Assembly: GCF_003576245.1 (NCBI RefSeq)
Contig: NZ_QWGA01000002.1
Location: forward strand, 1 to 64,000
DNA: 64,000 nucleotides
Reading direction: 5' to 3'
Source: Henriciella algicola
GTDB lineage: Bacteria; Pseudomonadota; Alphaproteobacteria; Caulobacterales; Hyphomonadaceae
Part shown: piece after piece, positions 5,613 to 18,045 of the stretch
Position numbering within the stretch: the first letter of the stretch is position 1
How the letters are laid out: every line of letters starts with the position of its first letter
The notes under the pieces: generated by a model
Seen by the model: only the letters and a program-made list of their open reading frames with translations
Database searches by the model: none
Told to the model about the DNA's origin: nothing
Made by a program: the position numbers and the translations under genes

Positions 5613-5786
5613 CTACATCACACTTCGACCGCGGACTGCGCGAGCGATGAAGCTGATAACCAGCAGTGCGAGGAAAACGAAGAACAGGATCTGTGCGATA
5701 CCTGCCGAAGCACCGGCGATGCCACCGAAACCGAAGACTGCGGCGATGATAGCCAGTACGAAAAATGTAAGTGCCCAACCAAGCAT
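5613..5786 (-). CDS. DUF1328 (YtjA-type) small membrane protein
   Basis: A 57-residue protein starting [20 protein letters not shown], with a second hydrophobic helix (about 31-48) and a basic tail RAVRGRSVM. This two-helix layout and the MLGWALTF start match the DUF1328 family of small inner-membrane proteins, whose function is unknown. The ATG is preceded by AAGGAGAT. An exact EcfG-type promoter lies on the same strand upstream (5860-5835), so induction by the general stress response is predicted. It is divergent from the entericidin gene, which has its own EcfG-type site. Confidence 0.9.
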
Positions 5787-5834
5787 GATTGATCTCCTTA
5801 GTTACGTGTTACGGCCCGATGCCGTTGAGAAGAA

Positions 5835-5860
5835 AACGGGCATAGGGGCAAACCGGTTCC
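5835..5860 (-). promoter_or_regulatory. EcfG-type promoter of the DUF1328 gene
   Basis: On the minus strand: GGAAC (5860-5856), a 17-base spacer, CGTT (5838-5835). This is an exact match to the alphaproteobacterial general stress sigma factor consensus. The predicted start near 5828 gives a leader of about 40 bases. Confidence 0.8.
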
Positions 5861-5873
5861 GCAAAATAATTTT

Positions 5874-5899
5874 GGAACCAGACCGCCGGAGACGTCGTT
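5874..5899 (+). promoter_or_regulatory. EcfG-type promoter of the entericidin gene
   Basis: GGAAC (5874-5878), a 17-base spacer, CGTT (5896-5899): exact consensus, oriented toward the lipoprotein gene at 5931. It is back-to-back with the minus-strand site at 5860-5835, the two GGAAC elements being 13 bases apart. Confidence 0.82.
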
Positions 5900-5930
5900 G
5901 CAGCTGGTCCGCGACAAGAAAGGATATGTC

Positions 5931-6074
5931 ATGAAAAAGAACCCAATCATGATCGCAGGACTTGGCCTGATGGCGCTTCTGGCGGCGGGCTGCAACACTG
6001 TCGAAGGCGCTGGCGAAGACGTCGAAGCGACTGGCGAGGTGATCGAAGAATCTGCAGAAGAAGCTGGCGCGTAA
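5931..6074 (+). CDS. Entericidin A/B-type small lipoprotein
   Basis: A 47-residue lipoprotein. The N-terminus MKKNPIMIAGLGLMALLAAG is a lipoprotein signal peptide with lipobox LAAGC and lipidated Cys21. The mature part is short and acidic (NTVEGAGEDVEATGEVIEE and on), the pattern of entericidin-family proteins, described as stress- or stationary-phase-induced envelope lipoproteins in other bacteria. An AAGGATAT site precedes the ATG. An exact EcfG-type promoter sits about 30 bases upstream and an intrinsic terminator follows at once, so it is a one-gene unit. Confidence 0.9.
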   Translation: MKKNPIMIAGLGLMALLAAGCNTVEGAGEDVEATGEVIEESAEEAGA

Positions 6075-6097
6075 GCCGAGCCGACATCTGAAAAACG

Positions 6098-6131
6098 AAA
6101 AGCCCGGCCAAAAATATTGGTCGGGCTTTTT
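6098..6131 (+). terminator. Intrinsic terminator after the entericidin gene
   Basis: AAAAGCCCGGCC (6098-6109) pairs, with one wobble, with GGTCGGGCTTTT (6119-6130) across an AT-rich loop; the descending arm ends in a T run. The A-rich start means it could also work on the minus strand. Confidence 0.85.
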
Positions 6132-6155
6132 CGTGTGCAGCAGACTTGGGGCGAC

Positions 6156-6422
6156 CTACCTGACCGGTGTTACAGGCTGCTCAACAGGAATGTAAGACAG
6201 CAGATAGACCGTGGGACGAATGGTGGCTTTCATCGCCTTTGCCTTGCCCGTCCGCAGACACGACCAGAAGGCAACACAGGCGACGCCGATCATTGAGCAC
6301 ACCACGTCCAGCCTCGATATGCCGCCAAGGCGGCGGAATACGTGCGCCACGTCCCCCAGTGGTCCAACCGCTGGATCGTAAGGGCTTGAGGACACTGATT
6401 TTTGTGAGGCTGCGTTTTCCAT
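6156..6422 (-). CDS. Doubtful hypothetical small protein
   Basis: An 88-codon open frame. I do not recognise the product. It has one weakly hydrophobic stretch (VCSMIGVACVAFW, about 41-53) and no clear ribosome-binding site. The only supporting context is an imperfect EcfG-type site (GGAAC-N16-CGTA, 6455-6431) whose predicted start falls almost on the ATG. It could equally be non-coding sequence between the entericidin terminator and the divergent DUF7218 operon. Confidence 0.22.
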   Translation of the reverse strand: MENAASQKSVSSSPYDPAVGPLGDVAHVFRRLGGISRLDVVCSMIGVACVAFWSCLRTGKAKAMKATIRPTVYLLSYIPVEQPVTPVR

Positions 6423-6430
6423 ACCGATCT

Positions 6431-6455
6431 TACGCCGCCAGCGACCGTCGGTTCC
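6431..6455 (-). promoter_or_regulatory. Imperfect EcfG-type site, minus strand
   Basis: GGAAC (6455-6451), a 16-base spacer, then CGTA (6434-6431), one mismatch to CGTT. It faces the doubtful small frame at 6422. The GGAAC is the inverted partner, 5 bases away, of the exact plus-strand element at 6461. Confidence 0.35.
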
Positions 6456-6460
6456 CGGCG

Positions 6461-6485
6461 GGAACGAAATTCCCCAGCTGGCGTT
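6461..6485 (+). promoter_or_regulatory. EcfG-type promoter of the DUF7218-DAGK-phosphoesterase operon
   Basis: GGAAC (6461-6465), a 16-base spacer, CGTT (6482-6485): exact consensus. The predicted start near 6492 gives a leader of about 30 bases before the first gene. Confidence 0.82.
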
Positions 6486-6522
6486 CGAAAATCATGCAAT
6501 TAACAACGACTTCGAGGGCATG

Positions 6523-6789
6523 ATGGCCAAAGACCACGGACCATCCATCAAGGATGATGAAACATATGAAGCGCTGGTCGATGAGGGGTACTCCAAATCC
6601 ACCGCAGCGCGTATCGCAAACGCCAAGGCAAACTCTGATCAGGAGCCGTCCAAAAAGGGCGGCAAGGCCCAGGCTTATGAAGACTGGACCCGCGATGAGC
6701 TTTACGAGCGCGCTCAGGAGCTTGAGATCGAGGGCCGTTCCGACATGAACAAGGACGATCTGATCAAAGCATTGCGGGAGAGCCGATGA
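6523..6789 (+). CDS. DUF7218 / Rho_N domain small protein
   Basis: An 88-residue hydrophilic protein. The N-terminal half (AKDHGPSIKDDETYEALVDE, then GYSKSTAARIANA) matches DUF7218-type sequences. The C-terminal part (WTRDELYERAQELEIEGRS, then MNKDDLIKALR) looks like a Rho termination factor N-terminal-type SAP-like helical motif, which in relatives binds nucleic acid. Function is unknown. Two ATGs are adjacent (6520, 6523); the second is better spaced from GAGGG. An exact EcfG promoter lies upstream, and the stop overlaps the start of the lipid-kinase gene, so the three genes 6523-8446 form a coupled operon. Confidence 0.85.
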   Translation: MAKDHGPSIKDDETYEALVDEGYSKSTAARIANAKANSDQEPSKKGGKAQAYEDWTRDELYERAQELEIEGRSDMNKDDLIKALRESR

Positions 6790-7640
6790 GCAAGATCTCC
6801 GCGCTGGTCAATCCACACTCTGGCAGTGTGCCCGAAGACGGGGTTGAAGCGCTTCGCAAAGCTCTCGAAGAGATCGGGCACACTGCCGATATCATCGAAA
6901 TCGAGATCGACCAGCTCGTGGAGCAGGTCAAAAAGGCGATTGCCGACGAACCAGATATTCTGATTGTCTGGAGCGGCGACGGGACGATCGCATGCGCGTT
7001 TGAACACGCTGGACCAGACGGCCCCCTCATCCTGCCCTTACCCGGCGGCACGATGAATTTGTTTCACAAGCAGATCCATGGCGGTGCCTGCGAGTGGCAG
7101 GACTGTCTCACGCGTGCGCTGCAGGACGGCAAGGAAATCGACGTCCCCGCAGGCAAGGCCGGTGAGCGCACATTCTATGTCGCTGCAATGGCAGGCAACC
7201 TGACCGACCTTACCGGTCCGCGAGAGGCTATCCGCAAGGGCCACCTTCTGGAGGCGCTGGAAACACTCTCTGGTAGCGATGTTCTCGACCTTCGGACAAA
7301 CATGACCTTCGACGTCGAGAAAAGCGACGGCACGACAGAAGCGGGCTTCGCGACCGCGGTGTCCGTTTTCGTTGGCACGCAGCAGGATGAGACGCTTGAG
7401 TTTGCGTACATCGATCCCGACAATCCACTTGAACTCGCTGCGGCGGGGTTTGGCGCCCTCTTTGACGATTGGCGCAATGCATCAGGTGTAAGCTGTTCTC
7501 ACATCCGTTCCGGCAAGCTGGAGCATGAACGCGGGCTCGATCTGCGCGTAACGCTGGATGGGGAGCCAGTCCGCCTTAAGTCCGGGACTAGCTTCAAAAG
7601 GATCGCAAAAGCGGGGCGCGCCCTTAGCGCCAACTTGTAA
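6786..7640 (+). CDS. Diacylglycerol kinase catalytic-domain protein
   Basis: A 284-residue member of the DAGK/sphingosine kinase/YegS superfamily, predicted to phosphorylate a lipid hydroxyl with ATP. The nucleotide-binding loop appears as WSGDGTIA (about 60-67; the usual motif is GGDGT) and is followed by LPGGTMN, the second glycine-rich motif. The substrate is not readable. It overlaps the previous gene by ATGA and the next by TAATG, so translation is probably coupled. The upstream EcfG-type promoter places it in the general stress response. Confidence 0.85.
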   Translation: MSKISALVNPHSGSVPEDGVEALRKALEEIGHTADIIEIEIDQLVEQVKKAIADEPDILIVWSGDGTIACAFEHAGPDGPLILPLPGGTMNLFHKQIHGGACEWQDCLTRALQDGKEIDVPAGKAGERTFYVAAMAGNLTDLTGPREAIRKGHLLEALETLSGSDVLDLRTNMTFDVEKSDGTTEAGFATAVSVFVGTQQDETLEFAYIDPDNPLELAAAGFGALFDDWRNASGVSCSHIRSGKLEHERGLDLRVTLDGEPVRLKSGTSFKRIAKAGRALSANL

Positions 7641-8446
7641 TGTCAAAAATTATCCAGGTCGCAGACATCCATTTCGGAACCGAGAACCCGCGCGCCATTG
7701 ACGCCTTCAAGGCAACGGTGGACGCAATCGAACCCGACGCGATCGCCGTCTGCGGCGACCTTACCCAGCGCGGCAAACATGAAGAGTTCGAAGCGGCCCG
7801 AAAATGGCTCGATACGTTCTCGATGCCCAAACTCGTCGTCGCGGGCAACCACGACACGCCGCTTCTGAACCTGTATGAACGCGTCGTGTCGCCGTTTGAG
7901 CGTCATGATAGCTACTTCGATGAATTCAGTGATCCCGTACATCTGGATAATGCGGTGCTGACCGGCATTAACACGGCACGTGGCTGGCAAACCCGGAAAA
8001 ACTGGGCTGAAGGCTCAGTGAATCTGGATGATCTTGATAATGCGATATCAACCGGCGACGAAGTGGCCGAGAAGACGGCCTTCCTGATCTGCCACCACCC
8101 TTTCCTGTCGCCGCCTGATGCGCCAATGCGCACCTCAACGCGCCGCGGCAACCGGGCCAGCAAACGTCTTGCGAAAAGCGGCTTCAGATATCTGCTGACA
8201 GGTCACGTTCACGTTCCGTCTGTAACGGTCGTGGATCATGAGGACGATGCTTATATAGCCGTCTCAGCAGGCACGCTGTCGACGCGCCTGCGCGCCAATC
8301 CAGCCAGCTTCAACCTGATCGATATTTCCGGTGAGGACTGCGCCGTGACGATCTTCAATCTGCATGGCGACCGGTTCGTCCCGCAAAAACCACACGTCCT
8401 GACGCCGAACTTCGAGCTGAAGGAAACGCATCTGAGCGTCGACTAG
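7640..8446 (+). CDS. Calcineurin-like metallophosphoesterase
   Basis: A 268-residue phosphoesterase with the full metal-binding signature: ADIHFG (8-13), CGDLTQRG near 38, AGNHD, CHHPF and GHVHVP. These are the residues that coordinate the two metal ions in the Icc/CpdA-type superfamily. Substrate is unknown (phosphodiester of a cyclic nucleotide or a phospholipid are options). Third gene of the operon started at 6523 and coupled to the kinase by a TAATG overlap. It converges with the phyK-like kinase, overlapping by 4 bases at the stops. Confidence 0.88.
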   Translation: MSKIIQVADIHFGTENPRAIDAFKATVDAIEPDAIAVCGDLTQRGKHEEFEAARKWLDTFSMPKLVVAGNHDTPLLNLYERVVSPFERHDSYFDEFSDPVHLDNAVLTGINTARGWQTRKNWAEGSVNLDDLDNAISTGDEVAEKTAFLICHHPFLSPPDAPMRTSTRRGNRASKRLAKSGFRYLLTGHVHVPSVTVVDHEDDAYIAVSAGTLSTRLRANPASFNLIDISGEDCAVTIFNLHGDRFVPQKPHVLTPNFELKETHLSVD

Positions 8447-10164
8447 AAGTCGGTCGCTTTCATGACGCGTTCTGACGTCGGCATTCTAAGCTCCACCGTA
8501 TAACCTTCGCCAGGCTGGGAGTGCGAGCTCATATCGGCGCGCAGCTGCTTTGCGAACGCCGTCATCAGACGGGACCCAAGCCCCGTCGATTTAGGCGCAT
8601 CTTCCTGCTCTTGCACCCCAAAGCCGTCATCTATGACCGACAGCACGATATCGTCGCCGTCTTCCTTGAGCCTCACGAGGATCGTGCCGCCATTGTCGTC
8701 GAAGGCGTATTTCATGGCGTTGGTGACAGCTTCGAGGAGGAAGAGCGCGATCGGGATCGCATCGTCGGCCGGTCGGTCGATATCGGCGATGTCCTGCTTA
8801 ATCGTCACGCGGATCTCGTCCATGCCCAGCGCGCCCGCCAGGTGAGATAGAAGCGCGTCGAGAAACGGCTGCATATGCACCGTCTCTAGACGCTCATGCT
8901 GGTAAAGCGTCTGGTGCACGATAGAGAGCGCATCGATCCTGTGACGGGCCGCTGAAATCACATTCCTCGCCGCTGGGTCAGAAACCTGACGGCGTTGCAG
9001 GTTGAGAAAGCTCGCCACGATCTGGAGATTGTTCTTCACGCGGTGGTGAATCTCTTTCACCGCAGAATCGCGCATCGCGATGGCAGAGCGCAGGGAACTG
9101 TCGCGTTCAGCAATTCGGTTCGCCATTCGATCGAACGTGCGCGCAAAGGACTGGATTTCATCAGGGGCGTTGTCGAATTCGTTGCCGATCCGGAAATTAT
9201 AGTGCCCCTCACCATAGATCAGCGCGAGCCGGCGTAGCCTTGCGAGCCACTTCAGCACCAGTCCGTCGACGGCAAGCCATGCCGCGATCAGAGCCAGTGT
9301 GAACGACAGGAGCGGGATGCCGATCGATTCCAGCGGCTGCAGCGTGAACTCACTGAAAAGGCCCGGCGATGGCCGCGAGATAATCGCGTAGATGCGATTG
9401 TCGACGATGGCGCGGACGACCACGTCGACAGAGCCCTGATCCTCAACGTCGAGAACGAACAGTTCACCATCTTCGTCGCCAGTTGCGCTCTCGATCCATG
9501 CAGGATCTACGTTTGCGATCCGCGCACTGCCAAAGACCTGCCCACCGCTGTCCGACAGCGCCAGTTCGACATCTTCTGGCAGGTTGGTCAGCCTGATCGT
9601 TCGGATGAGCTCGTCAGTGCGGAGCGGGAATGCGATCGCGCCGCGAAAATCACCATCCGGGCCTTCAACGCGTCGCATGACAGAGAAGAGCCAAGCCTGG
9701 CTTTGCGGCCCAAAAAACGCGTCCGTGCGCACCTTCGTCTGTCCCTGCCGCAACAGCTCAAACGCTTCGAGTTGAACAACTCGCGCGCCGCTGACCTGGA
9801 GACCTGAGCAAGCGGCCAGGCCTTCAGCGTCAAAGAACGCAATGTTTGAAAGTTGCGGCACCCGCGGGGACAGCGTCGCATAGACGCCGCGGCAGTCGCC
9901 GTTCACGATGTCGGCTTCATAGATCTGCTGCAGCGTATCGACGGTCGAGAGGACCTGCTCGACTTCGTCAATCGCCCGGTCGGAAATCTCTACCAGATCA
10001 TTCCGGCGTTCAGCGCGCGAATCCTGCGCATTCAGGTAGGAGCGAAAGCCAGCGAAGATCAGGATAGGAGTCAAAGCGGCTGCGATCGTGATCAACAATC
10101 GCAGCCTCAGGGAGCCCCGTCTGGAAGGCGCTCGACTAGTTCCTGGCGTCGGCGGTTGATCCAC
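8443..10164 (-). CDS. phyK: HisKA_2 sensor histidine kinase, PhyK-like
   Basis: Inner-membrane kinase expected to phosphorylate PhyR in response to stress (573 aa). Layout: TM1 (about 21-43), a roughly 230-residue periplasmic sensor domain, TM2 (about 283-303), a HAMP-like linker, a HisKA_2 dimerisation domain with EIHHRVKNNLQ (phospho-His 373/374), then an ATPase domain with Asn482, DDGFG (512-516) and STGLGSRL (526-533). The only plausible start is GTG at 10164, inside the 3' end of ecfG (29-base overlap), so it is co-translated with the sigma factor. The symbol is assigned by context and domain type; the sensor ligand is unknown. Confidence 0.85.
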   Translation of the reverse strand: MDQPPTPGTSRAPSRRGSLRLRLLITIAAALTPILIFAGFRSYLNAQDSRAERRNDLVEISDRAIDEVEQVLSTVDTLQQIYEADIVNGDCRGVYATLSPRVPQLSNIAFFDAEGLAACSGLQVSGARVVQLEAFELLRQGQTKVRTDAFFGPQSQAWLFSVMRRVEGPDGDFRGAIAFPLRTDELIRTIRLTNLPEDVELALSDSGGQVFGSARIANVDPAWIESATGDEDGELFVLDVEDQGSVDVVVRAIVDNRIYAIISRPSPGLFSEFTLQPLESIGIPLLSFTLALIAAWLAVDGLVLKWLARLRRLALIYGEGHYNFRIGNEFDNAPDEIQSFARTFDRMANRIAERDSSLRSAIAMRDSAVKEIHHRVKNNLQIVASFLNLQRRQVSDPAARNVISAARHRIDALSIVHQTLYQHERLETVHMQPFLDALLSHLAGALGMDEIRVTIKQDIADIDRPADDAIPIALFLLEAVTNAMKYAFDDNGGTILVRLKEDGDDIVLSVIDDGFGVQEQEDAPKSTGLGSRLMTAFAKQLRADMSSHSQPGEGYTVELRMPTSERVMKATDF

Positions 10165-10744
10165 TAGAAAGCTCGTCAGCCTGTTTCATGATATCGTCGA
10201 AGGCTTCCGATGCCCGCAGCTTGCCATCACCGGAAAATCCACCCTGGGATTTATCAATGATTTCAGCAAGCGCCTTACGCGCACGGCTTACCCGGCTCTT
10301 GATCGTGCCTACGGCACATCCGCAGATCTCCGCGGTCTCTTCATAAGAGAGGCCACCTGCCCCAACCAGGATCAGGGCTTCGCGCTGATCTTCCGGAAGG
10401 ACCGTCAGGCCTGTGCGAAGCGCCAGAAGATCCATCGCAGACGACGGATCGTCATTCGCGATCAGCGTGGCCTCTGCCACTTCTGGATCCAGCTGCTGGC
10501 GACGCCAGCTGCGGCGCTTTTCCGAATAGAAGAGATTGCGGAGGATCGTGAAGGTCCAAGCCTTTAGATTTGTTCCCTGCTGATAGCTCTCACGCGCTTT
10601 CCATGCCTTCAGCATGGCTTCCTGCGCGAGATCGTCAGCAGCAGTGGCATTTCCGCAAAGACTGCGCGCAAATGCGCGCAAGTGTGGAATGAGTCCGGCG
10701 AGTTCTGCTTTGAACGCCTCATCATCGAGTGTCGGCTTGGTCAA
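10136..10744 (-). CDS. ecfG: EcfG-type general stress sigma factor
   Basis: A 202-residue ECF sigma factor of the alphaproteobacterial general stress response. Region 2 spans about 15-78 (RAFARSLCGN, DDLAQEAMLKAWKA, then LKAWTFTILRNLFYSEKRR). Region 4 spans about 108-158 (LPEDQREALILVGAGGLSYE, then CGCAVGTIKSRVSRARKAL). Expected to recognise GGAAC-N16/17-CGTT promoters and to be held inactive by NepR. It lies 8 bases downstream of nepR and overlaps the kinase gene, giving a nepR-ecfG-phyK operon divergent from phyR. Confidence 0.95.
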   Translation of the reverse strand: MTKPTLDDEAFKAELAGLIPHLRAFARSLCGNATAADDLAQEAMLKAWKARESYQQGTNLKAWTFTILRNLFYSEKRRSWRRQQLDPEVAEATLIANDDPSSAMDLLALRTGLTVLPEDQREALILVGAGGLSYEETAEICGCAVGTIKSRVSRARKALAEIIDKSQGGFSGDGKLRASEAFDDIMKQADELSSGSTADARN

Positions 10745-10752
10745 AACAGTCT

Positions 10753-10950
10753 CTATTGCTTGTTCTTGGTGTTGTCGGCCTGTTCGAGAAGATTCAAGAA
10801 TTCCTCTGGAACAGCTTCCTCTGTGACCTCGTCATAGAGGCGGCGGAGCTGATCGCCGATCCGTTTCTGACGCAATTTGCGTGAACGGTCGTCGTCTGCG
10901 CTCCCTCCTGCGTGTTGGTCCATCGGTGTATGACTCGCTTTTTCGCTCAT
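10753..10950 (-). CDS. nepR: Anti-sigma factor NepR
   Basis: A 65-residue anti-sigma factor that sequesters EcfG until PhyR~P captures it. The conserved core is KRIGDQLRRLYDEVTEEAVP (29-48) followed by EEFLNLLEQAD (49-59), the two helices that contact EcfG or PhyR; the N-terminal 28 residues are polar and low-complexity. The open frame runs 56 codons further upstream, but ATG 10950 gives the family length. It is immediately upstream of ecfG, the classical arrangement. Confidence 0.93.
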   Translation of the reverse strand: MSEKASHTPMDQHAGGSADDDRSRKLRQKRIGDQLRRLYDEVTEEAVPEEFLNLLEQADNTKNKQ

Positions 10951-10979
10951 AAGTCCCCGGTGCTTATCTGAACACGTGT

Positions 10980-11004
10980 AAAGCCTTCGGAAACGCAAAG
11001 TTCC
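10980..11004 (-). promoter_or_regulatory. Tentative EcfG-type promoter of nepR-ecfG-phyK
   Basis: GGAAC (11004-11000), a 16-base spacer, then CTTT (10983-10980), one mismatch in the -10 tetramer. Position (about 30-50 bases before nepR) and its pairing with the phyR site support it; the weak -10 does not. Confidence 0.45.
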
Positions 11005-11008
11005 ATTC

Positions 11009-11033
11009 GGAACAAACTTTTTTTCACTGGGTT
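11009..11033 (+). promoter_or_regulatory. EcfG-type promoter of phyR
   Basis: GGAAC (11009-11013), a 16-base spacer, GGTT (11030-11033), one mismatch to CGTT. The GGAAC is separated by only 4 bases from the inverted GTTCC at 11000-11004, so divergent -35 elements sit side by side. Confidence 0.6.
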
Positions 11034-11088
11034 GCAACTTTTGCGTCGAGCACAAGTTATAGACCGAACGTAATGTGCGAGGGTTAGC

Positions 11089-11877
11089 ATGAGTCTTGTT
11101 GAGCAATTTGGTCCACACCTGCCGTTTCTGCGCCGTTATGCGCGGGCGCTGACGGGCAGTCAGGAAAGTGGTGATTCATACATCCGCGCGTCTCTGACCG
11201 CATTGGCAGAGGATCCTAGTCAGGTTAGCGAAGAGCTGCCGGCGCGCCAGGCGCTGTATCGTTTTTTCCATGTCATCTGGGGGTCTACCGGGGCCCGTCT
11301 TGAGCGCCCGGGCGGCGCCATGACACCGGAAACACGTCTACAGGCTCTCGCGCCGATTGAACGCCAGGCATTCCTTCTCACCGCACTGGAAGGATTTCAG
11401 GTCAGCGAAGCGGCAACGATCCTTGGCAAGACTGTCCAGCAGGTCGAAGAACTGATCGCCAAAGCTCATACCGATATCGAAGAGACACTTTCGACCAAGG
11501 TGCTGATTATCGAAGATGAGCCGGTTATCGCTGCTGACCTTGAAAGCCTTGTTGAAGAACTGGGTCACGAGGTCACGGGCAACGCGACGACGCATACTGA
11601 GGCCGTCGCAATGGCACGGGCCAACCCACCGGGACTGATCCTCTGTGACATTCAGCTTGCTGATAATTCCTCGGGTATTGAGGCAGCTCACGAGATTCTC
11701 GAGGAGCTCGACGTCCCGATCATCTTCATCACGGCTTTCCCAGAGCGCCTGCTCACGGGTGAACGTCCGGAGCCGACTTACCTGATCCCGAAACCGTTCC
11801 AAGAAAACACGGTCAAGGCAGCTATCGGTCAGGCCCTATTCTTCCATCCTTCCTCGGAGTCCGTCGCAGCGGAGTAA
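11089..11877 (+). CDS. phyR: Response regulator PhyR
   Basis: Anti-anti-sigma regulator of the general stress response (262 aa). Residues 1-125 form a sigma-factor-like domain that mimics EcfG and binds NepR when activated. The C-terminal receiver (about 136-258) has acidic pocket Glu142/Asp143, phospho-acceptor Asp187 in LILCDIQLAD, Lys235 in IPKPF, and the FITAFPERLLTG segment (213-224) that corresponds to the FAT-GUY motif of this receiver class. Divergent from nepR-ecfG-phyK, the standard locus organisation. Confidence 0.96.
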   Translation: MSLVEQFGPHLPFLRRYARALTGSQESGDSYIRASLTALAEDPSQVSEELPARQALYRFFHVIWGSTGARLERPGGAMTPETRLQALAPIERQAFLLTALEGFQVSEAATILGKTVQQVEELIAKAHTDIEETLSTKVLIIEDEPVIAADLESLVEELGHEVTGNATTHTEAVAMARANPPGLILCDIQLADNSSGIEAAHEILEELDVPIIFITAFPERLLTGERPEPTYLIPKPFQENTVKAAIGQALFFHPSSESVAAE

Positions 11878-11923
11878 TCGTTGCAAACCTTTCGGCGAAC
11901 GGCTGCTTCAGCAGAGGAATGAT

Positions 11924-13150
11924 ATGTCTGACTTGCTGGAACTTGCGGTGCGCCGTCTGGAGAGGATTGTTGAAATTGATGAGGAGCTGGCAAATGTTTG
12001 TCGGCTCCTCAAACTGCCCGCGGAACTTATCGAACGAGAGCTTTCAATCAGCCGCGACGATGGCAAAACCAGCTTCATGCGGGCGTGGCGCTGTCGTTAC
12101 AATACGCTCAAAGGTCCCACGAAAGGCGGCGTTCGTTTCTCCGCCAGCGCTGACCCCGACGAGGTAAATCGCCTCGCCTTTCTCATGACATTGAAATGCG
12201 CGCTCCTCGATCTGCCTTTTGGCGGTGCCAAGGGCGCTATTCGAATCGATCCAGACACCTTGTCGGACGATGAAAGACGCCAGCTGGCCATTGCATATGG
12301 TGAGCTGTTTTCGGACACGTTGCGCGCTGACAATGACATCGCAGCGCCCGACGTTGCCACAACACCCCATGACATGGAAAACATCGTCAAAGGGCTGGAG
12401 CCTGCGCACAATAGCGGCTCTGTCGGCGCCGTCACAGGCAAGCCCCTGGACATGGGCGGCCTCTCGATCCGCGAAGGGGCCACAGGACGTGGCGCAGTCT
12501 TTCTGTTGCGTACTCTTGGCGAAGAACTCGGCATTGATATTTCGAGTGCACGCATCGCCGTTCAGGGTATGGGGAAGGCAGGTTTAGAGTTTGCGCAGGA
12601 TGCCGCCGACGCAGGCGCGATGATCATCGCCATGTCAGATAGTAGCGGGACGATCTCCAACGCTGATGGTCTCGATATTGAGAAGGTGGCCAAGCAGAAG
12701 GCAGCTGGCAAACTGAATTACAATGCAAGCTCTGACGACGTGCTGAGAGCTGATGTGGACATACTCTGCCTCGCGGCGATGTCGGATGTGATCAAGGCTG
12801 ACAATGTCGATAATCTGTCCTGTAGAATGATTGTCGAGATTGCGAACGCGGCGATCACCGCAGATGCTGACGCGGCATTGGCGGAAAAGGGCATAATTGT
12901 CGGGCCTGATATTCTGTTCAATGCTGGCGGCGTGGCCGCGTCACACCTTGAGTGGCTCGCCTTCCGCAAAGGCGGCGAGGACAAGCTGGGTGACATTCAG
13001 GCGATGTGGGAAGACAGGCTGTCGGCCGCTGCCGGCTCGGTCTCTTCTACGGTCCACGAATGCGGCGGTAGCTGGCGTGAGGCCGCCCTGCTCTATGCAT
13101 TGAGGGATCTCAACGCAGTTGCTGTCGGTCAGGGCCTGTTCGAAAGCTGA
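11924..13150 (+). CDS. Glu/Leu/Phe/Val dehydrogenase family (glutamate dehydrogenase type)
   Basis: Predicted NAD(P)-dependent amino-acid dehydrogenase (408 aa), most like glutamate dehydrogenase. Signatures: GPTKGGVRF (64-72, Lys67), LKCALLDLPFGGAKG (90-104, Lys91 and catalytic Lys103), APDVAT (141-146, Asp143) and a Rossmann loop GMGKAG (215-220). Leu or Phe dehydrogenase cannot be excluded, but length and motifs favour the glutamate enzyme. Preceded by GAGGAATGAT. It follows phyR by about 45 bases on the same strand, so read-through from the phyR promoter is possible. Convergent with the Crp/Fnr gene. Confidence 0.88.
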   Translation: MSDLLELAVRRLERIVEIDEELANVCRLLKLPAELIERELSISRDDGKTSFMRAWRCRYNTLKGPTKGGVRFSASADPDEVNRLAFLMTLKCALLDLPFGGAKGAIRIDPDTLSDDERRQLAIAYGELFSDTLRADNDIAAPDVATTPHDMENIVKGLEPAHNSGSVGAVTGKPLDMGGLSIREGATGRGAVFLLRTLGEELGIDISSARIAVQGMGKAGLEFAQDAADAGAMIIAMSDSSGTISNADGLDIEKVAKQKAAGKLNYNASSDDVLRADVDILCLAAMSDVIKADNVDNLSCRMIVEIANAAITADADAALAEKGIIVGPDILFNAGGVAASHLEWLAFRKGGEDKLGDIQAMWEDRLSAAAGSVSSTVHECGGSWREAALLYALRDLNAVAVGQGLFES

Positions 13151-13164
13151 GTACTCGACCCCCT

Positions 13165-13938
13165 TTAGTCAGCGAGGCCTCTCTGCGCTTCGCCAGCATC
13201 CCTTACAGGCCGACCGGACGTGATGTGCAGCTTTTTCAGATGCAGATAGTCGGTATCGAAGTGCGATAGCCGCGCCAGCTTTGCGCGGTCCACGATCGTG
13301 ATTTCGCCGCCGCGCCCTTCGGTGATCAGATCCGCCCGCCGCATGGCAGACATGGTCCGCGACACATGTACCGGCGTAAGACCGAGCGCGTCTGCAATAT
13401 CGGCGCGCGTCAGCGGCACGGTGAGACGCTCGACCTCCATACCGGTCGCCCCGACAAAGCGGCGATGTAGTTCCAGCAGCAAATGCCCGATACGTTCTCG
13501 CGCTGAGCGACGGCCAATCCTGACGATCTGTTCGCGCAGGATGGATTCTTCCTGCACAGCTGACCACCAGAAGGCGGATGCGAGGCTCGCAGACGTCTGC
13601 AGCATATTCACGAACACGCTCGACGAGATCACGAGCACCTTGCACTCGGTGATGGCGGTCAGCGAATGGTCCGCCTTCAGATCGGCCAGCGACTGCAAAT
13701 CGAACACGTCACCTGGAAGCATGAAATTGACGATCTGCCGGCGCCCATCCTCCAGCAGCCGGTAACGGATCGCCCACCCCTCCATGACGATGAACACCTG
13801 ACGGATTTCATCACCTGCCTGCACGATGTCATCGCCAGCCAGATAGACCTGCTCATGATGGTCAAGCTCATCGAAAGGTAGCCAGTCATCCTCGCCGAGG
13901 CTCACATACTGGCCGAGCCGCTTCTTGAAAACGCTCAT
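13165..13938 (-). CDS. Crp/Fnr family transcriptional regulator
   Basis: A 257-residue regulator with an N-terminal cyclic-nucleotide-binding-type beta barrel (about 25-125, including VQAGDEIRQVFIVMEGWA and FMLPGDVFDLQSL) and a C-terminal winged helix with LTRADIADALGLTPVHVSRT (about 175-195) as recognition segment. The Fnr-type N-terminal Cys cluster is absent, so it is not an oxygen-sensing Fnr; an effector cannot be assigned. It converges with the dehydrogenase gene, 14 bases between the stops, and is divergent from the EcfG-controlled DUF883 operon. Confidence 0.9.
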   Translation of the reverse strand: MSVFKKRLGQYVSLGEDDWLPFDELDHHEQVYLAGDDIVQAGDEIRQVFIVMEGWAIRYRLLEDGRRQIVNFMLPGDVFDLQSLADLKADHSLTAITECKVLVISSSVFVNMLQTSASLASAFWWSAVQEESILREQIVRIGRRSARERIGHLLLELHRRFVGATGMEVERLTVPLTRADIADALGLTPVHVSRTMSAMRRADLITEGRGGEITIVDRAKLARLSHFDTDYLHLKKLHITSGRPVRDAGEAQRGLAD

Positions 13939-14003
13939 GAAAACAGCCCTCCTTTCCCAGCCGCAGAATTAGATCGCCCGACGCCCCAAATTCCATAGCT
14001 CTT

Positions 14004-14028
14004 GGAACGATTGCAAGGGCTTGGCGTT
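14004..14028 (+). promoter_or_regulatory. EcfG-type promoter of the DUF883 operon
   Basis: GGAAC (14004-14008), a 16-base spacer, CGTT (14025-14028): exact consensus. The predicted start near 14035 is about 30 bases before the first ATG (14067). Confidence 0.83.
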
Positions 14029-14066
14029 GATTACATGAGATTAATTGAAAACGCCGGGAGTTACCA

Positions 14067-14411
14067 ATGGCTGGACGAACTGCAACAAAAGCAAATGGCG
14101 TCAAAGACGTCGCCGCTGAAGCTGCTGCAAAAGCGGCTGGCTCGGACTTTGAATCGCTGAAAGGCGACATTGCCCAACTTCAGAAGGACCTACAGTCCCT
14201 CGCCTCCAATTCGGGCAAATACATTCGCGAGCGTACCTCGAAGGAATACGATCGCGGCGTAAAAGTTTCAAAGGACTACGCTACGAAAGCAGGTGACGAA
14301 GCCGAGAAAGCTCGCGACTATATTGAGGACAAGGTGCGTGAAAACCCGCTCGCCTCCATCGGTATCGCATTCGGTACGGGTGTCCTGCTCGCCATGTTGA
14401 AGCGTAAGTAA
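14067..14411 (+). CDS. DUF883 (ElaB/YqjD-type) membrane-anchored protein
   Basis: A 114-residue protein. A long Ala/Lys-rich, heptad-like helix (about 15-88, with DIAQLQKDLQSLASNSGKYI) is followed by a C-terminal membrane anchor ENPLASIGIAFGTGVLLAML and KRK. This is the layout of DUF883 proteins; E. coli YqjD and ElaB are inner-membrane, ribosome-associated, stationary-phase proteins. First gene under an exact EcfG promoter, 12 bases before the holin-like gene. The pair resembles the E. coli yqjD-yqjE order. Confidence 0.87.
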   Translation: MAGRTATKANGVKDVAAEAAAKAAGSDFESLKGDIAQLQKDLQSLASNSGKYIRERTSKEYDRGVKVSKDYATKAGDEAEKARDYIEDKVRENPLASIGIAFGTGVLLAMLKRK

Positions 14412-14423
14412 CAGCTTACCTTC

Positions 14424-14822
14424 ATGGATGTAGCAAAACTGAGAATAATCGCTGGCGCTGGCGCGGTCTTTTTTGGCTTCGCCGGCGTCACGACGTTGAC
14501 CGTGGCAGTCGTTGTCGCTCTCATGCCGGTCATTGGCCTGCTATGGGCAACTGTGTGTGTTGCCAGTCTTTTCCTGTTTGTCGCGTGCGTCTGCACGGTT
14601 GTGTTCCTCAAGCCAGGAAAATCGACTGAGGAAGAGCTCGACCAATTTGAGAATGCGACAGCTGACATGCTAGCCGATCTGCCATTCGATGCCATCGAAG
14701 CGCTGGTAGAAAAGCGTCCGATCGTAGCGGCGACGGCTGCGCTCGCGGCTGGATACTTCCTTATTTCGAGCCCTGACAGCGCGTCGAAAGGCTTGCAAAA
14801 ACTGTTCGATCAACTGATCTAA
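14424..14822 (+). CDS. Phage-holin-like (YqjE/DUF1469-type) membrane protein
   Basis: A 132-residue membrane protein. Two adjacent hydrophobic helices (about 8-34 and 36-62) are followed by a cytoplasmic acidic segment (STEEELDQFENATADMLADL) and a short C-terminal hydrophobic stretch RPIVAATAALAAGYFLI. Layout and position after DUF883 suggest the 'phage holin family'/YqjE group; there is no phage context, so a lytic role is not implied. No strong ribosome-binding site precedes its ATG. Predicted to be co-transcribed from the EcfG promoter at 14004. Confidence 0.7.
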   Translation: MDVAKLRIIAGAGAVFFGFAGVTTLTVAVVVALMPVIGLLWATVCVASLFLFVACVCTVVFLKPGKSTEEELDQFENATADMLADLPFDAIEALVEKRPIVAATAALAAGYFLISSPDSASKGLQKLFDQLI

Positions 14823-14871
14823 CGGCCTATGGCCAGTGCTCGAAAGAAGCCAATCAGATCTAAAATCTGGT

Positions 14872-14894
14872 CCGTCCTCAAATGTTGAGGACGG
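14872..14894 (+). repeat. 10-bp hairpin with the start codon in its loop
   Basis: CCGTCCTCAA (14872-14881), ATG (14882-14884), TTGAGGACGG (14885-14894): a perfect inverted repeat whose 3-base loop is the ATG of the next annotated frame, followed by CCTTTCT. It may act as a terminator, as a translation block, or show that the start lies elsewhere. Confidence 0.8.
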
Positions 14895-15538
14895 CCTTTC
14901 TCGTTGTTTCGGCGCTCACCACGGGCGTCAGCCTTGGCCGCAAGGCGATCGGCGACGCGGTAAACCGCAAAAAGCAGAAGATCATTCATCAGGCCGCCAT
15001 TGAGGCGCGTGAGCGCATCAGAAGCCATGCGGTGGTCTTTTTTCAGGAAAACCTGATCCACTTTGTGCAGTCAGTTTTCATAAAGGCCTGCCTCTTGGTC
15101 CTTGTCTGGCTGGGCTTTCGGATCGGCATCTATTCTCATGCGGTCATGTCGGTCGCGACTGTTATCCTGCTCGCGATATTTATCGTACGCGACGCGATCG
15201 TCATCTTCCCCACTGCCAGACTGGTCCTGAGTAAGCTTCATGAGCATCACTGGCGCCCGAAGAAGGCCCTTGGAGAGACGGTCGCTGCGCTTGTCTTTGA
15301 ACAGGTCCTTGAAGAGGCGGAAGAGTTTGATGCTGGGCGCACAACGCGGATCATCCTGTCGCTGGCTGGCCACAAGATGGATAACATGACGCGGGAGATC
15401 GCATCCGAAGTCGCGGACATAGCCCGCCAGACCAGCTGGCAGGATTTGCGCCCCTTCGTGCTGGCAGCGCTAGGAAAGTTCGCGATTCTTTCGGCCCTTT
15501 ATTCGCTATTCGTTTTCATTCTGGTGAACACGGGCTGA
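14882..15538 (+). CDS. Unknown membrane protein, third gene of the DUF883 operon
   Basis: I do not recognise this 218-residue protein. It has an N-terminal hydrophobic segment (RTAFLVVSALTTGVSLG), a basic helical region, two central membrane helices (about 64-80 and 86-105), a cytoplasmic amphipathic region with FEQVLEEAEEFDAGRTTRII, and a C-terminal helix (FAILSALYSLFVFILVNTG). The ATG sits in the loop of a perfect hairpin and lacks a ribosome-binding site. A 19-codon frame at 14829-14888 (MASARKKPIRSKIWSVLKC) runs into it in another frame; joined by one extra base it would give a natural basic N-terminus, so the start may be frameshifted. Confidence 0.7.
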   Translation: MLRTAFLVVSALTTGVSLGRKAIGDAVNRKKQKIIHQAAIEARERIRSHAVVFFQENLIHFVQSVFIKACLLVLVWLGFRIGIYSHAVMSVATVILLAIFIVRDAIVIFPTARLVLSKLHEHHWRPKKALGETVAALVFEQVLEEAEEFDAGRTTRIILSLAGHKMDNMTREIASEVADIARQTSWQDLRPFVLAALGKFAILSALYSLFVFILVNTG

Positions 15539-15590
15539 CCAACACCTGCACATTCTGCCGCTCATTAAGGGTAATTCACACAGCATATGC

Positions 15591-15615
15591 GGAACCGCTT
15601 AGCTGTGGCGACGTT
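15591..15615 (+). promoter_or_regulatory. EcfG-type promoter of the 109-aa secreted protein gene
   Basis: GGAAC (15591-15595), a 16-base spacer, CGTT (15612-15615): exact consensus. The predicted start near 15622 is about 25 bases before the ATG at 15648. Confidence 0.82.
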
Positions 15616-15647
15616 TTTCTCTCAATCGAGGAAAGCAGAACAGTCAC

Positions 15648-15977
15648 ATGCGCAACGCCGTCAGATCACTCGCAATTGTCGCAGCCGCAGCGTTATTCGC
15701 AGCGCCAGCGATTGCAGAGCGCGTTCACCTGACGGCTGCTGAGTTGTCCGACGCTGAGACGGCGTGCCGCTCCGGACTGCCGCTCATTCCGGTCGAAGTC
15801 GACACAGACGTTGAAGTCGGTCAGTACGCTCTGCCACTGAAGGGTGAGAGCGGCGAGTTCAACTCCGCCCTCATCCTCGACGAAGAAACGTTGGATGCGC
15901 TGCCGGAGTGCCGCGCGCGTGTCGAGCAGGCTGACTTCCTGCCAGAGCGTCCGGCACGCCACACGGCGCTTTCCTAA
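15648..15977 (+). CDS. Unknown small secreted protein
   Basis: A 109-residue protein with a clear Sec signal peptide (MRNAVRSLAIVAAAALFAAP, cleavage after AIA, about residue 23). The mature part is acidic, has two cysteines (in ETACRSG and PECRARV) that could form a disulfide in the periplasm, and no family I recognise. An exact EcfG-type promoter immediately upstream predicts stress induction. Followed by the convergent tRNA-Leu gene. Mono-cistronic. Confidence 0.75.
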   Translation: MRNAVRSLAIVAAAALFAAPAIAERVHLTAAELSDAETACRSGLPLIPVEVDTDVEVGQYALPLKGESGEFNSALILDEETLDALPECRARVEQADFLPERPARHTALS

Positions 15978-15996
15978 AACTCGCGACAATCAGATG

Positions 15997-16083
15997 TGGT
16001 GCGGGCGGCCGGGCTTGAACCGGCAAGACCATACGGTCGAGGGATTTTAAGTCCCTTGCGTTTACCAATTTCGCCACGCCCGC
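15997..16083 (-). tRNA. tRNA-Leu (UAA)
   Basis: The minus strand folds as a class II tRNA of 87 bases: acceptor GCGGGCG pairs with CGCCCGC, followed by discriminator A and encoded CCA. The anticodon arm AGGGA-CTTAAAA-TCCCT gives anticodon TAA. A variable arm follows (CGACCGTATGGTCT), and the T arm is GCCGGTTCAAGCCCGGC. Long variable arm and UAA anticodon identify tRNA-Leu reading UUA/UUG. It stands alone between convergent and tandem protein genes. Confidence 0.96.
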
Positions 16084-16121
16084 AAGGCGCACTCCGACTG
16101 TCTAGTTTGCACCGGCGGCTT

Positions 16122-16141
16122 CAGGCAAGCACGCTTGCCTG
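16122..16141 (-). terminator. 20-bp palindrome after the thiolase gene
   Basis: CAGGCAAGC (16122-16130), two bases, GCTTGCCTG (16133-16141): a perfect 9-bp stem, 11 bases past the thiolase stop and upstream of the tRNA on the minus strand. No T run follows, so its role as a terminator is uncertain. Confidence 0.4.
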
Positions 16142-16152
16142 TTCGCACCCCG

Positions 16153-17367
16153 TTAGTCTGTGACCCGCTCAAAGATCGCGGCCAGACCCTGACCGCCGCC
16201 AATGCACATTGTCTCAAGACCGTACCGTGCCTCGCGGCGCTCCATCTCGTAGAGCATCGTCGTCAGAATGCGCACGCCCGTCGCGCCAACCGGGTGACCA
16301 AGCGAAATGCCGGACCCGTTCGGGTTGAGGCGTTCATAGTCCTCTTTCTCAAAACCAAGCGCCTTGGTGCAGGCTAGCACCTGCGACGCAAACGCCTCGT
16401 TGAGCTCGATCACGTCGAGGTCGGAGAGCTTGAGGCCAGCCCGGTCCAGCGCCTTCTGGGTCGAAGGCACAGGGCCGATGCCCATGACTTCTGGACCAAC
16501 GCCAGCGACCGACCATGACGTCAGACGCGCGAGAGGCTTCAGGCCATACTTCTCGGCGGCTTCACGCGTACAGACGATACAGGCTGCTGCGCCATCATTC
16601 TGACCCGATGCATTACCCGCCGTGACAGTTGCGTCCGGATCGACCTTGCCGCGCAGCGCGCGCAGCGTGGACAGCTTCTCAAGAGATGAGTCAGCGCGGA
16701 TGTGCTCGTCCTTGTCGACGACGGTGTCGCCCTTGCGGCCTTTCACAGTGAACGGCACGATTTCCTGGTCGAACTTGCCGGACTTCTGCGCCGCGGCCGC
16801 TTTCATGTGGGAGTTGTAAGCGAACTCGTCCTGCGCCTCGCGGGTGATGCCATAGTCACGGCGGAGGTTCTCTGCCGTCTCGATCATGCCACCTTCGACC
16901 GGGTAGAACTTGCCGCCAGCGGTGTAGCGACCGCGCGTCAGGCCGTCATGCAGCATCAGGCCATCGCCCTTGATCTGCCAGCGCATATGGGTGGAGAAGA
17001 ACGGCGCGTTCGACATGCTTTCTGCGCCGCCTGCGATCATCACATCACTTGCGCCCGTCGCGATTTGCATGATCGCATAGATGACGCCCTGCAGGCCCGA
17101 GCCACAACGGCGGTCGATCTGGATGCCGCCGGTCCCCGTGGTGAGGCCCGCGTCCAGCGCAACGACGCGGCCAAGCGCCGGCGCTTCCATGGACGGATAG
17201 CACTGGGCGAACACGCAATCATCGACCGCTTCTGCCGGCACGTCATTGCGGCTCATCAGCTCGCGAACGAGGAAGGAAGCCAGGTCATGCGCCTGCTCTG
17301 ATTTGAGGCTGCCGCCGAAGCCGCCGACAGGCAGACGAAGCGGTGAACAGATGACGACATCACGCAT
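16153..17367 (-). CDS. Acetyl-CoA acetyltransferase (thiolase)
   Basis: A 404-residue thiolase that condenses two acetyl-CoA or cleaves 3-ketoacyl-CoA; cytoplasmic. Motifs: active-site Cys88 in DRRCGSGLQ, NEAFASQ, GHPVGATG with the catalytic His, and CIGGGQG with the second Cys near the C-terminus. ATG 17367 (MRDVVICSPLR) is chosen over an upstream frame because GGGAGGA precedes it and the family starts here. Biosynthetic (PHB) versus degradative role cannot be decided; an enoyl-CoA hydratase gene lies 1.1 kb away on the same strand. Confidence 0.93.
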   Translation of the reverse strand: MRDVVICSPLRLPVGGFGGSLKSEQAHDLASFLVRELMSRNDVPAEAVDDCVFAQCYPSMEAPALGRVVALDAGLTTGTGGIQIDRRCGSGLQGVIYAIMQIATGASDVMIAGGAESMSNAPFFSTHMRWQIKGDGLMLHDGLTRGRYTAGGKFYPVEGGMIETAENLRRDYGITREAQDEFAYNSHMKAAAAQKSGKFDQEIVPFTVKGRKGDTVVDKDEHIRADSSLEKLSTLRALRGKVDPDATVTAGNASGQNDGAAACIVCTREAAEKYGLKPLARLTSWSVAGVGPEVMGIGPVPSTQKALDRAGLKLSDLDVIELNEAFASQVLACTKALGFEKEDYERLNPNGSGISLGHPVGATGVRILTTMLYEMERREARYGLETMCIGGGQGLAAIFERVTD

Positions 17368-17465
17368 GGTATTTCCTCCCGAAACTGGTCCACGCCATAC
17401 AGCCAATCTCGGCCTTGCGTGCAACCCATACCGTGGAGAAATGCGCGGCTAAGCGATGCGGGACC

Positions 17466-18011
17466 CTAGCCAGAAACGATGATCCGCCCGCCATCGACAT
17501 CAAAGCGGTCACGCGTCACCTGAACAAGGTCAGTTGCCGTACCAGTCGTGATACGCACCCACACCGCATCGACCTCTCCGTCTTCAGACTGGACCATTGC
17601 GACAGAGCCGATATCGTCGCCATAAGCGCTCTCGACGCGCATACCTGCTTTAGGCCCTGTCGGCGCGGCCGGTTCAGACCTAGCGACGTCAGACCGGATT
17701 TCGGCGCTCGCAAGGCGAAGCTCTGGACGGATGGAGCCGACTTCTGCAACCGCCGCCCTGCCGAACCGTGGCTCGCCGGGCTTTGCGACGGGCCCACCGA
17801 GCAGTTCGTCGGAGGCCATATATCGCTGTTCCAGATAGTCAGTCTGCCGCGCCCGGTCGCTGTCCGGCCAGCTGCCGACTTCATAGTCGGTCGCATAGCG
17901 GCCATTGGCGACATAGGTCTGCGCGTTCTGCGCCAAAACCGGAGCGGTCAAGGTGAGACCGGCAACAAGCGCCAGTGTGATCCTTGTGAGATGGGAACGC
18001 GGTACAGACAT
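17466..18011 (-). CDS. Unknown secreted protein with PRC-barrel-like C-terminus
   Basis: A 181-residue protein with a signal peptide (MSVPRSHLTRITLALVAGLT, cleavage after VLA, about residue 27), a Tyr/Asp-rich segment, and a C-terminal part (GMRVESAYGDDIGSVAMVQS, then VRITTGTATDLVQVTRDRFD) that reads like a PRC-barrel-type beta fold; this is a resemblance only. An exact EcfG-type promoter ends 9 bases upstream of the ATG, so the transcript would be leaderless or nearly so. It lies 36 bases after another small secreted-protein gene. Confidence 0.72.
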   Translation of the reverse strand: MSVPRSHLTRITLALVAGLTLTAPVLAQNAQTYVANGRYATDYEVGSWPDSDRARQTDYLEQRYMASDELLGGPVAKPGEPRFGRAAVAEVGSIRPELRLASAEIRSDVARSEPAAPTGPKAGMRVESAYGDDIGSVAMVQSEDGEVDAVWVRITTGTATDLVQVTRDRFDVDGGRIIVSG

Positions 18012-18019
18012 GCCGGATC

Positions 18020-18045
18020 AACGGCATGCCCGCAGGTTCGGTTCC
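18020..18045 (-). promoter_or_regulatory. EcfG-type promoter upstream of the 181-aa secreted protein
   Basis: On the minus strand: GGAAC (18045-18041), a 17-base spacer, CGTT (18023-18020): exact consensus, placed in the 36-base gap between two genes. The predicted start (about 18012-18014) almost coincides with the ATG at 18011. Confidence 0.68.

Follow-up and report, generated by a model that had tools for sequence, protein, structure and literature searches.

The locus considered here lies at positions 5,613 to 18,045 of a 64,000-nucleotide stretch of Henriciella algicola (assembly GCF_003576245.1, contig NZ_QWGA01000002.1, positions 1 to 64,000), hereafter the window, and combines the regulators of the general stress response (the response regulator PhyR, the anti-sigma factor NepR, the sigma factor EcfG, and a PhyK-like kinase) with six exact matches to the EcfG promoter consensus GGAAC-N16/17-CGTT. 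The question is whether these matches are promoters read by the sigma factor encoded among them and, if so, why targets of a global regulator should stand beside its gene. In this Hyphomonadaceae bacterium, the region appears to be the primary general stress locus, surrounded by a conserved set of clustered genes that EcfG targets directly, a reading to which a probability of about 0.86 is given on the sequence comparisons described below (Table 1).

The regulators were recognized by Pfam, NCBIfam, and solved-structure relatives, in keeping with the nepR-ecfG-phyK and phyR genes that an earlier reading of the letters (the sequence-only reading) had placed here. PhyR is composed of a sigma-like domain and a receiver, with NCBIfam and Pfam domains over their cut-offs, and it was aligned with 3n0r across residues 2-258, the two having in common the stretch DIQLAD, whose aspartate is presumably the phospho-acceptor; its nearest named relatives are those of Hyphomonas, Ponticaulis, and other Hyphomonadaceae (68-74%). 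For EcfG, NCBIfam gave 80 matches, and of the best 25 only the ECF superfamily model was over its cut-off. The nepR gene lies directly ahead of ecfG and is divergent from phyR.

Seven exact matches were found in the window, six of them within 5835-18045, while 100 dinucleotide shuffles of the window gave a mean of 1.04 sites and none (0/100) reached seven, close to the single match that the sequence-only reading had expected in 64 kb. The six have the coordinates and strands given there; the seventh (2383-2407), not mentioned in it, is inside the gene pgi. As had also been claimed, all six lie between genes and are correctly oriented, facing a start codon 8-48 bp past the -10 box. Genes were called by a home-made codon-usage script trained on this genome and looked over on the window, which did not call nepR and set the TrxR start wrongly, so that the TrxR call swallowed ECH.

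In the whole genome (3.2 Mb in eight contigs), the exact motif occurs 53 times and the reversed pattern used as a control 55 times, and this lack of excess in the raw count, which is of little use by itself, would fit a local chance bunching of matches without any role in regulation. The surroundings of the 53 motif sites and the 55 control sites, all of which were taken, tell otherwise: 42/53 motif sites are intergenic vs 4/55 control sites, and 39/53 vs 1/55 are intergenic with a start codon in the right orientation no more than 200 bp downstream, a placement indicating that the motif marks real promoters. Six of the 39 promoter-placed sites are in the cluster and 33 are spread elsewhere in the genome. 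Random placement of 39 sites never put six within 12.2 kb (0/20,000) and that of all 53 sites did so once (1/20,000), with the width taken from the data and placement uniform over the contigs, intergenic or not. The enrichment near phyR that the sequence-only reading had proposed to seek by a genome-wide scan is therefore present; its picture of a compact instead of a scattered regulon has to be given up, the regulon being both at once, and the cluster is the linked part (6/39 promoter-placed exact sites) of an otherwise scattered regulon.

Conservation within the genus was followed gene by gene in the neighbourhoods reaching each gene, the window counted as one. The promoters of the DUF1328, entericidin, RhoN, DUF883, and 15648 genes are exact in 13/13 neighbourhoods, at similar distances, and that of the 17466 gene in 6/8. 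In the promoter alignment, the boxes are 100% identical and the spacers just 28-46% alike (among rows with an exact site, which leaves aside two 17466 rows), and boxes conserved while spacers diverged are the outcome that rules chance out. On promoter placement, the placement test, and promoter conservation together, chance was rejected and keeps a vanishingly small probability, as the sequence-only reading had argued in calling six such sites hard to explain by it. The other genes of the genus table have no exact match, except for GDH; the row of pgi, an indexing artefact near locus ends, was dropped.

GDH, a dehydrogenase gene beside phyR (11924-13150), has an exact EcfG site in 4/13 neighbourhoods (L117, L118, L120, and L121), the window not being one of them, a sequence pattern that would fit neighbours coming under EcfG control or escaping from it. 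At 18020-18045, a mere 8 bp separate the -10 box from the start codon (ATG) of the 17466 gene, whose message would be almost leaderless. The near-consensus site at 6431-6455 is also visible in the flanks of further genus rows of the promoter alignment, and its count in Table 1 is a lower bound, one best match being listed per gene.

The cluster is not peculiar to this genome. A strong PhyR match (E 4e-71 or better) was present in 29 relatives, and neighbourhoods were fetched for 20 of them, those left out being G031, G037, G041, G051, G053, G054, G055, G057, G059, and a second PhyR place in G035. In stretches of up to 20 kb around phyR, the 20 relatives have 121 sites vs 6.0 expected from their own genome rates, together with four control matches; by its own criterion, the sequence-only reading would have been contradicted by sites no denser around phyR than in the rest of the genome, and they are far denser. 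Outside the 20, G054 has eight sites within 9 kb of PhyR. Among loci of named genomes, assigned to orders by judgement (L056, L057, and L077 among the less certain), the ratio of motif to control matches is 43:1 in 10 Hyphomonadaceae-type, 26:6 in 21 sphingomonad-type, 25:0 in eight rhizobial or other, 18:2 in five rhodobacterial, and 13:1 in four Steroidobacter-type loci. Sphingomonad loci average 1.2 sites per 20 kb, mostly a single site beside the regulators or entericidin. Most, not all, of the Hyphomonadaceae loci fetched have the cluster, and in other alphaproteobacterial loci it is weaker or has other genes. Enrichment was judged against the reversed pattern and each genome's own rate; a baseline from unrelated response-regulator loci (seven matches in 32 loci) was dropped, most of these being from Bacteroidota.

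The synteny comparison suggested by the sequence-only reading gave a cluster kept in the genus and several EcfG-driven genes beside phyR in other genera, and it bears on how the arrangement came about. One explanation is passive inheritance, i.e., an ancestral stress locus with neighbouring stress genes that is slowly rearranged, with no gain from closeness. It is in line with a gene order nearly fixed in the genus, flanks included, with the confinement of the locus to one branch of the genus tree, and with the fading of the looser genes (RhoN, 15648, and 17466) with distance of kinship. The outgroup comparison, which covers 17 loci from 16 distinct genomes (L037 and L125 come from one genome), speaks against it: DUF1328 is kept beside phyR in 14 loci, entericidin in 13, DAGK, phosphoesterase, and holin-like in 12 each, and DUF883 in 11, yet the eight plain flanking genes (pgi, nusG, SMP-30, GDH, thiolase, ECH, TrxR, and cinA) are beside phyR in 0/17. 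As an inside control for this linkage, GDH (at 0.8 kb) serves best, and Crp, of unsure EcfG status, is kept in 5/17. Furthermore, the kept genes are sometimes on the opposite side of phyR (DUF1328 and DAGK in L124, DUF883 in L129). Passive inheritance is considered possible, at somewhat long odds. The opposite proposal, in which nearness to ecfG is what selection maintains, is at present doubtful; a core set of first-line envelope stress genes would then be held within about 7 kb of ecfG in related genera despite rearrangement, forming with the regulators a self-contained module that is retained or lost whole and whose genes are the first that freed sigma factor reaches.

This PhyR (86% or more) occurs in 14 of the 29 genomes of the genus, and the 14882 gene in the same 14 and no others. 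Nine of the remaining 15 have a distant PhyR only (34-41%), and in six (G005, G006, G012, G022, G023, and G027) neither a PhyR-like protein nor a NepR match was found, G006 and G023 being approximately 90% complete; judged from these searches, the general stress response seems to be absent from the six. Completeness is below 90% for G010 and G026. The old site of the locus, read over 16-20 kb in 8/15, has pgi and nusG in 8/8 and SMP-30 in 7/8, with the island genes gone and three motif matches in total. The motif/control ratio is 0.49 in the 15 without the locus vs 0.86 in the 14 with it (Mann-Whitney p 3.4e-5, kinship ignored). Joint travel of regulators and targets as a mobile island, by horizontal transfer, would account for the co-occurrence of phyR and the 14882 gene, and a tRNA-Leu gene beside the island, a mild dip in G+C (0.55-0.59 within the island vs 0.60-0.62 beside it), and a similar locus in Gammaproteobacteria could be cited in its favour. 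Pfam scans of 19 window proteins, however, gave no integrase-type family, and the distribution fits one branch of the tree, as the 14 form one side of a single branch in the Pgi tree (support 100/100). Other genera of the family have related loci as well, which makes loss a simpler reading than transfer, and a mobile origin is held to be improbable.

The sites might also be read mainly by a paralogous EcfG instead of the one encoded here, given that a second ecfG (C2:480230, 48% alike) with its own nepR is present elsewhere in this genome and that paralogues share promoters in other species (PMC8103513). The 20 kb around the paralogous loci of this genome, however, have no exact site in any of the three stretches, and in genus genomes with the paralogous system alone, 10 stretches of approximately 20 kb hold four sites in all and no cluster. 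This explanation is accordingly thought unlikely.

Several observations weigh against a conserved cluster of direct EcfG targets, in addition to the raw genome count. The nepR and phyR genes have only non-consensus candidates for promoters of their own in the window and in the genus: the best site before nepR has one mismatch in 9/14 genomes, two in 3/14, and three in 2/14, and a GCAAC-N16-NAGTT-like site with two mismatches lies 30-32 bp from the phyR start in 13/13 genus relatives. In Sphingopyxis, two -35 boxes are commonest, and GCAAC is one of them (PMC7083833); some outgroups have exact promoters (nepR 4/16, phyR 3/17). There is no exact site in two of the 10 named Hyphomonadaceae-type loci (L032 and L039), and likewise none in L041, L062, L063, and L064. 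In the outgroup loci, RhoN remains beside phyR in 1/17, the 15648 gene in 2/17, and the 17466 gene in 0/17, and exact promoters are fewer (DUF1328 6/14, entericidin 10/13, DAGK 5/12, and DUF883 7/11). Several of the lost neighbours are farther from phyR than the kept ones, so that distance partly confounds linkage; cinA is mostly past the fetched reach, and some loci are incomplete (L031 and L033 on the left). As the 14 genomes are on one branch, the contrasts of 14 vs 15 amount to one event; the control pattern, too, has a higher density in the 15 (24.6 vs 19.0 per Mb), so that some of the difference in ratio may be due to base composition. Lastly, the second EcfG might read the same sites.

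The products of the cluster were described by the sequence-only reading as mostly membrane proteins, lipoproteins, or secreted proteins. Not all of them have this look: the RhoN/DUF7218, lipid-kinase-like, and phosphoesterase products look cytoplasmic by their Pfam families. For the entericidin-like lipoprotein, the NCBIfam entericidin models match only far under their cut-offs.

Table 1. Features of the locus, with coordinates in the window, and related genes elsewhere in the genome (contig:positions).
Feature	Position	Strand	Evidence
DUF1328 small membrane protein, predicted EcfG target	5613..5786	-	Pfam PF07043, 56.5 bits vs cut-off 27
Predicted EcfG promoter GGAAC-N17-CGTT, for DUF1328	5835..5860	-	Motif scan; exact in 13/13 genus neighbourhoods
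AT-rich 13-bp stretch separating two back-to-back -35 boxes	5861..5873		13 bp in 12/13 genus neighbourhoods, 24 bp in L122
Predicted EcfG promoter GGAAC-N17-CGTT, for entericidin-like lipoprotein	5874..5899	+	Exact in 13/13
Entericidin EcnA/B-family small lipoprotein	5931..6074	+	Pfam PF08085, 29.3 bits vs cut-off 23.3
Near-consensus GGAAC-N16-CGTA ahead of ORF 6156-6422, status unsure	6431..6455	-	Best match before that ORF in at least 3 other genus neighbourhoods
Predicted EcfG promoter GGAAC-N16-CGTT, for 6520-8446 gene run	6461..6485	+	Exact in 13/13
DUF7218 / Rho N-terminal-like (RhoN) protein, first in gene run	6520..6789	+	Pfam
Diacylglycerol-kinase-like (DAGK) protein, overlapping preceding gene	6786..7640	+	Pfam PF00781
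Calcineurin-like metallophosphoesterase	7640..8446	+	Pfam PF00149
PhyK-like sensor histidine kinase (HisKA_2)	8443..10164	-	Pfam; NCBIfam PhyK model 372 bits, under 750 cut-off
EcfG sigma factor	10136..10744	-	Pfam sigma r2/r4 and PhyR_sigma2 over cut-off; best solved relative 5uxx, 2.7e-42
NepR anti-sigma factor	10753..10950	-	Pfam PF18557, 51.5 bits vs cut-off 25.7; NCBIfam NepR 51.2 bits, under cut-off 100
Candidate weak nepR-ecfG promoter GGAAC-N16-CTTT	10980..11004	-	Best match before nepR
Candidate weak phyR promoter GCAAC-N16-AGTT	11034..11058	+	Window sequence
PhyR anti-anti-sigma response regulator	11089..11877	+	NCBIfam PhyR 359 bits vs cut-off 240; best solved relative 3n0r, 2.2e-88
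Predicted EcfG promoter GGAAC-N16-CGTT, for DUF883 run	14004..14028	+	Exact in 13/13
DUF883-type small membrane protein	14067..14411	+	Pfam PF19029, 29.4 bits vs cut-off 27
Holin-like (YqjE-type) membrane protein	14424..14822	+	Pfam PF07332, 22.8 bits, under cut-off 28.4
Conserved protein, same run as DUF883	14882..15538	+	ORF; no Pfam or NCBIfam match
Predicted EcfG promoter GGAAC-N16-CGTT, ahead of 15648 gene	15591..15615	+	Exact in 13/13
Small protein, signal-peptide-like start (by eye)	15648..15977	+	ORF, conserved in genus; no Pfam or NCBIfam match
tRNA-Leu (TAA), just past 15648 gene; possible landing site	15997..16083	-	In 12/12 genus neighbourhoods scanned
Protein with signal-peptide-like start (by eye)	17466..18011	-	ORF; no Pfam or NCBIfam match
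Predicted EcfG promoter GGAAC-N17-CGTT, ahead of 17466 gene; least conserved of six	18020..18045	-	Exact in 6/8 genus neighbourhoods with the gene
Paralogous NepR-EcfG genes	C2:480059-480703		
Paralogous PhyR gene	C5:1143226-1143930		
Paralogous NepR gene	C8:148175-148264		

Outside the cluster, Pfam scans covered 30 of the 33 target genes (L021, L024, and L027 being left out) and found Pmp3 twice, RcnB twice, glycine-zipper, OmpA, DJ-1/PfpI, and hemerythrin proteins, aldo-keto and short-chain reductases, a PRC-barrel protein, and DUF4112; 7/30 have no Pfam match at E 0.001, and L010 and L139 have matches only under the cut-off. We take this to be an ordinary general stress set, and its make-up supports the motif. 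The motif also agrees with published EcfG promoters (PMC7083833; PMC3892343).

From the protein families and the pattern of sites, we infer that, under stress, PhyK would phosphorylate PhyR, which would then take NepR off EcfG, a partner switch established in relatives (PMC8103513). The freed EcfG would lead RNA polymerase to GGAAC-N16/17-CGTT promoters, the six local ones and some 33 others, and the local ones are predicted to drive DUF1328, the entericidin-like gene, RhoN-DAGK-phosphoesterase, DUF883-holin-like, and two secreted-type genes. The DUF1328 and entericidin promoters are 13 bp apart and probably do not accommodate two polymerases together, so that the pair may fire in turn; among 40 divergent EcfG promoter pairs in the fetched loci, 19 are spaced 12-14 bp, approximately 14 of these being orthologues of the 5835-5899 pair.

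With the alphaproteobacterial PhyR-NepR-EcfG (ECF15) systems, the locus shares all the core proteins, the divergent phyR and nepR-ecfG, the neighbouring PhyK-like kinase, and GGAAC-N16-CGTT. It differs in that at least five predicted target transcription units are packed around the regulators, whereas the locus sharing described in the accessible text of the sources is that of regulators, not targets (PMC8103513; PMC7083833; PMC3892343). The sigT locus of Caulobacter crescentus (CC_3473-CC_3477) has the same regulators, and a SigT-dependent entericidin homologue with a SigT motif, CC_3473, has the locus number adjoining that of the kinase CC_3474 (PMC3073932), although one sentence of that source labels PhyR as CC_3473, at odds with its own figure legend. 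One direct target is named there, in the accessible part of the source, vs six promoters here, and the nearby CC_3466 is SigT- and SigU-dependent without a motif (PMC3073932). In the literature searched, which lacked most subscription papers, no account was found of several direct EcfG targets clustered together and conserved. The parts are canonical, and the arrangement seems new, with a small form on record in Caulobacter.

RpoS (sigma-S) of E. coli works alike as a general stress sigma factor, and entericidin and DUF883/YqjE-type genes are RpoS-linked there; it belongs to an unrelated sigma family under unrelated control, and we know of no crowding of RpoS targets around rpoS.

In addition, four Steroidobacter-type loci of Gammaproteobacteria (L053, L058, L061, and L066) have PhyR, EcfG, a PhyK-like kinase, DUF1328, and exact EcfG motifs, while EcfG has been called exclusive to Alphaproteobacteria (PMC3892343). 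L066 was the only one of them with a NepR match (tblastn); in the family, 4/60 genomes gave PhyR-domain matches (E 7e-23 or better), and the literature search found no paper on PhyR in Steroidobacter.

The neighbourhood kept in relatives points to a conserved stress module. Many EcfG targets are without an assigned function, and the set that stays beside the regulators is likely the core of the response, for which the cluster provides a short list of candidates; it is also a natural test of whether the targets of a global regulator gain from nearness to its gene.

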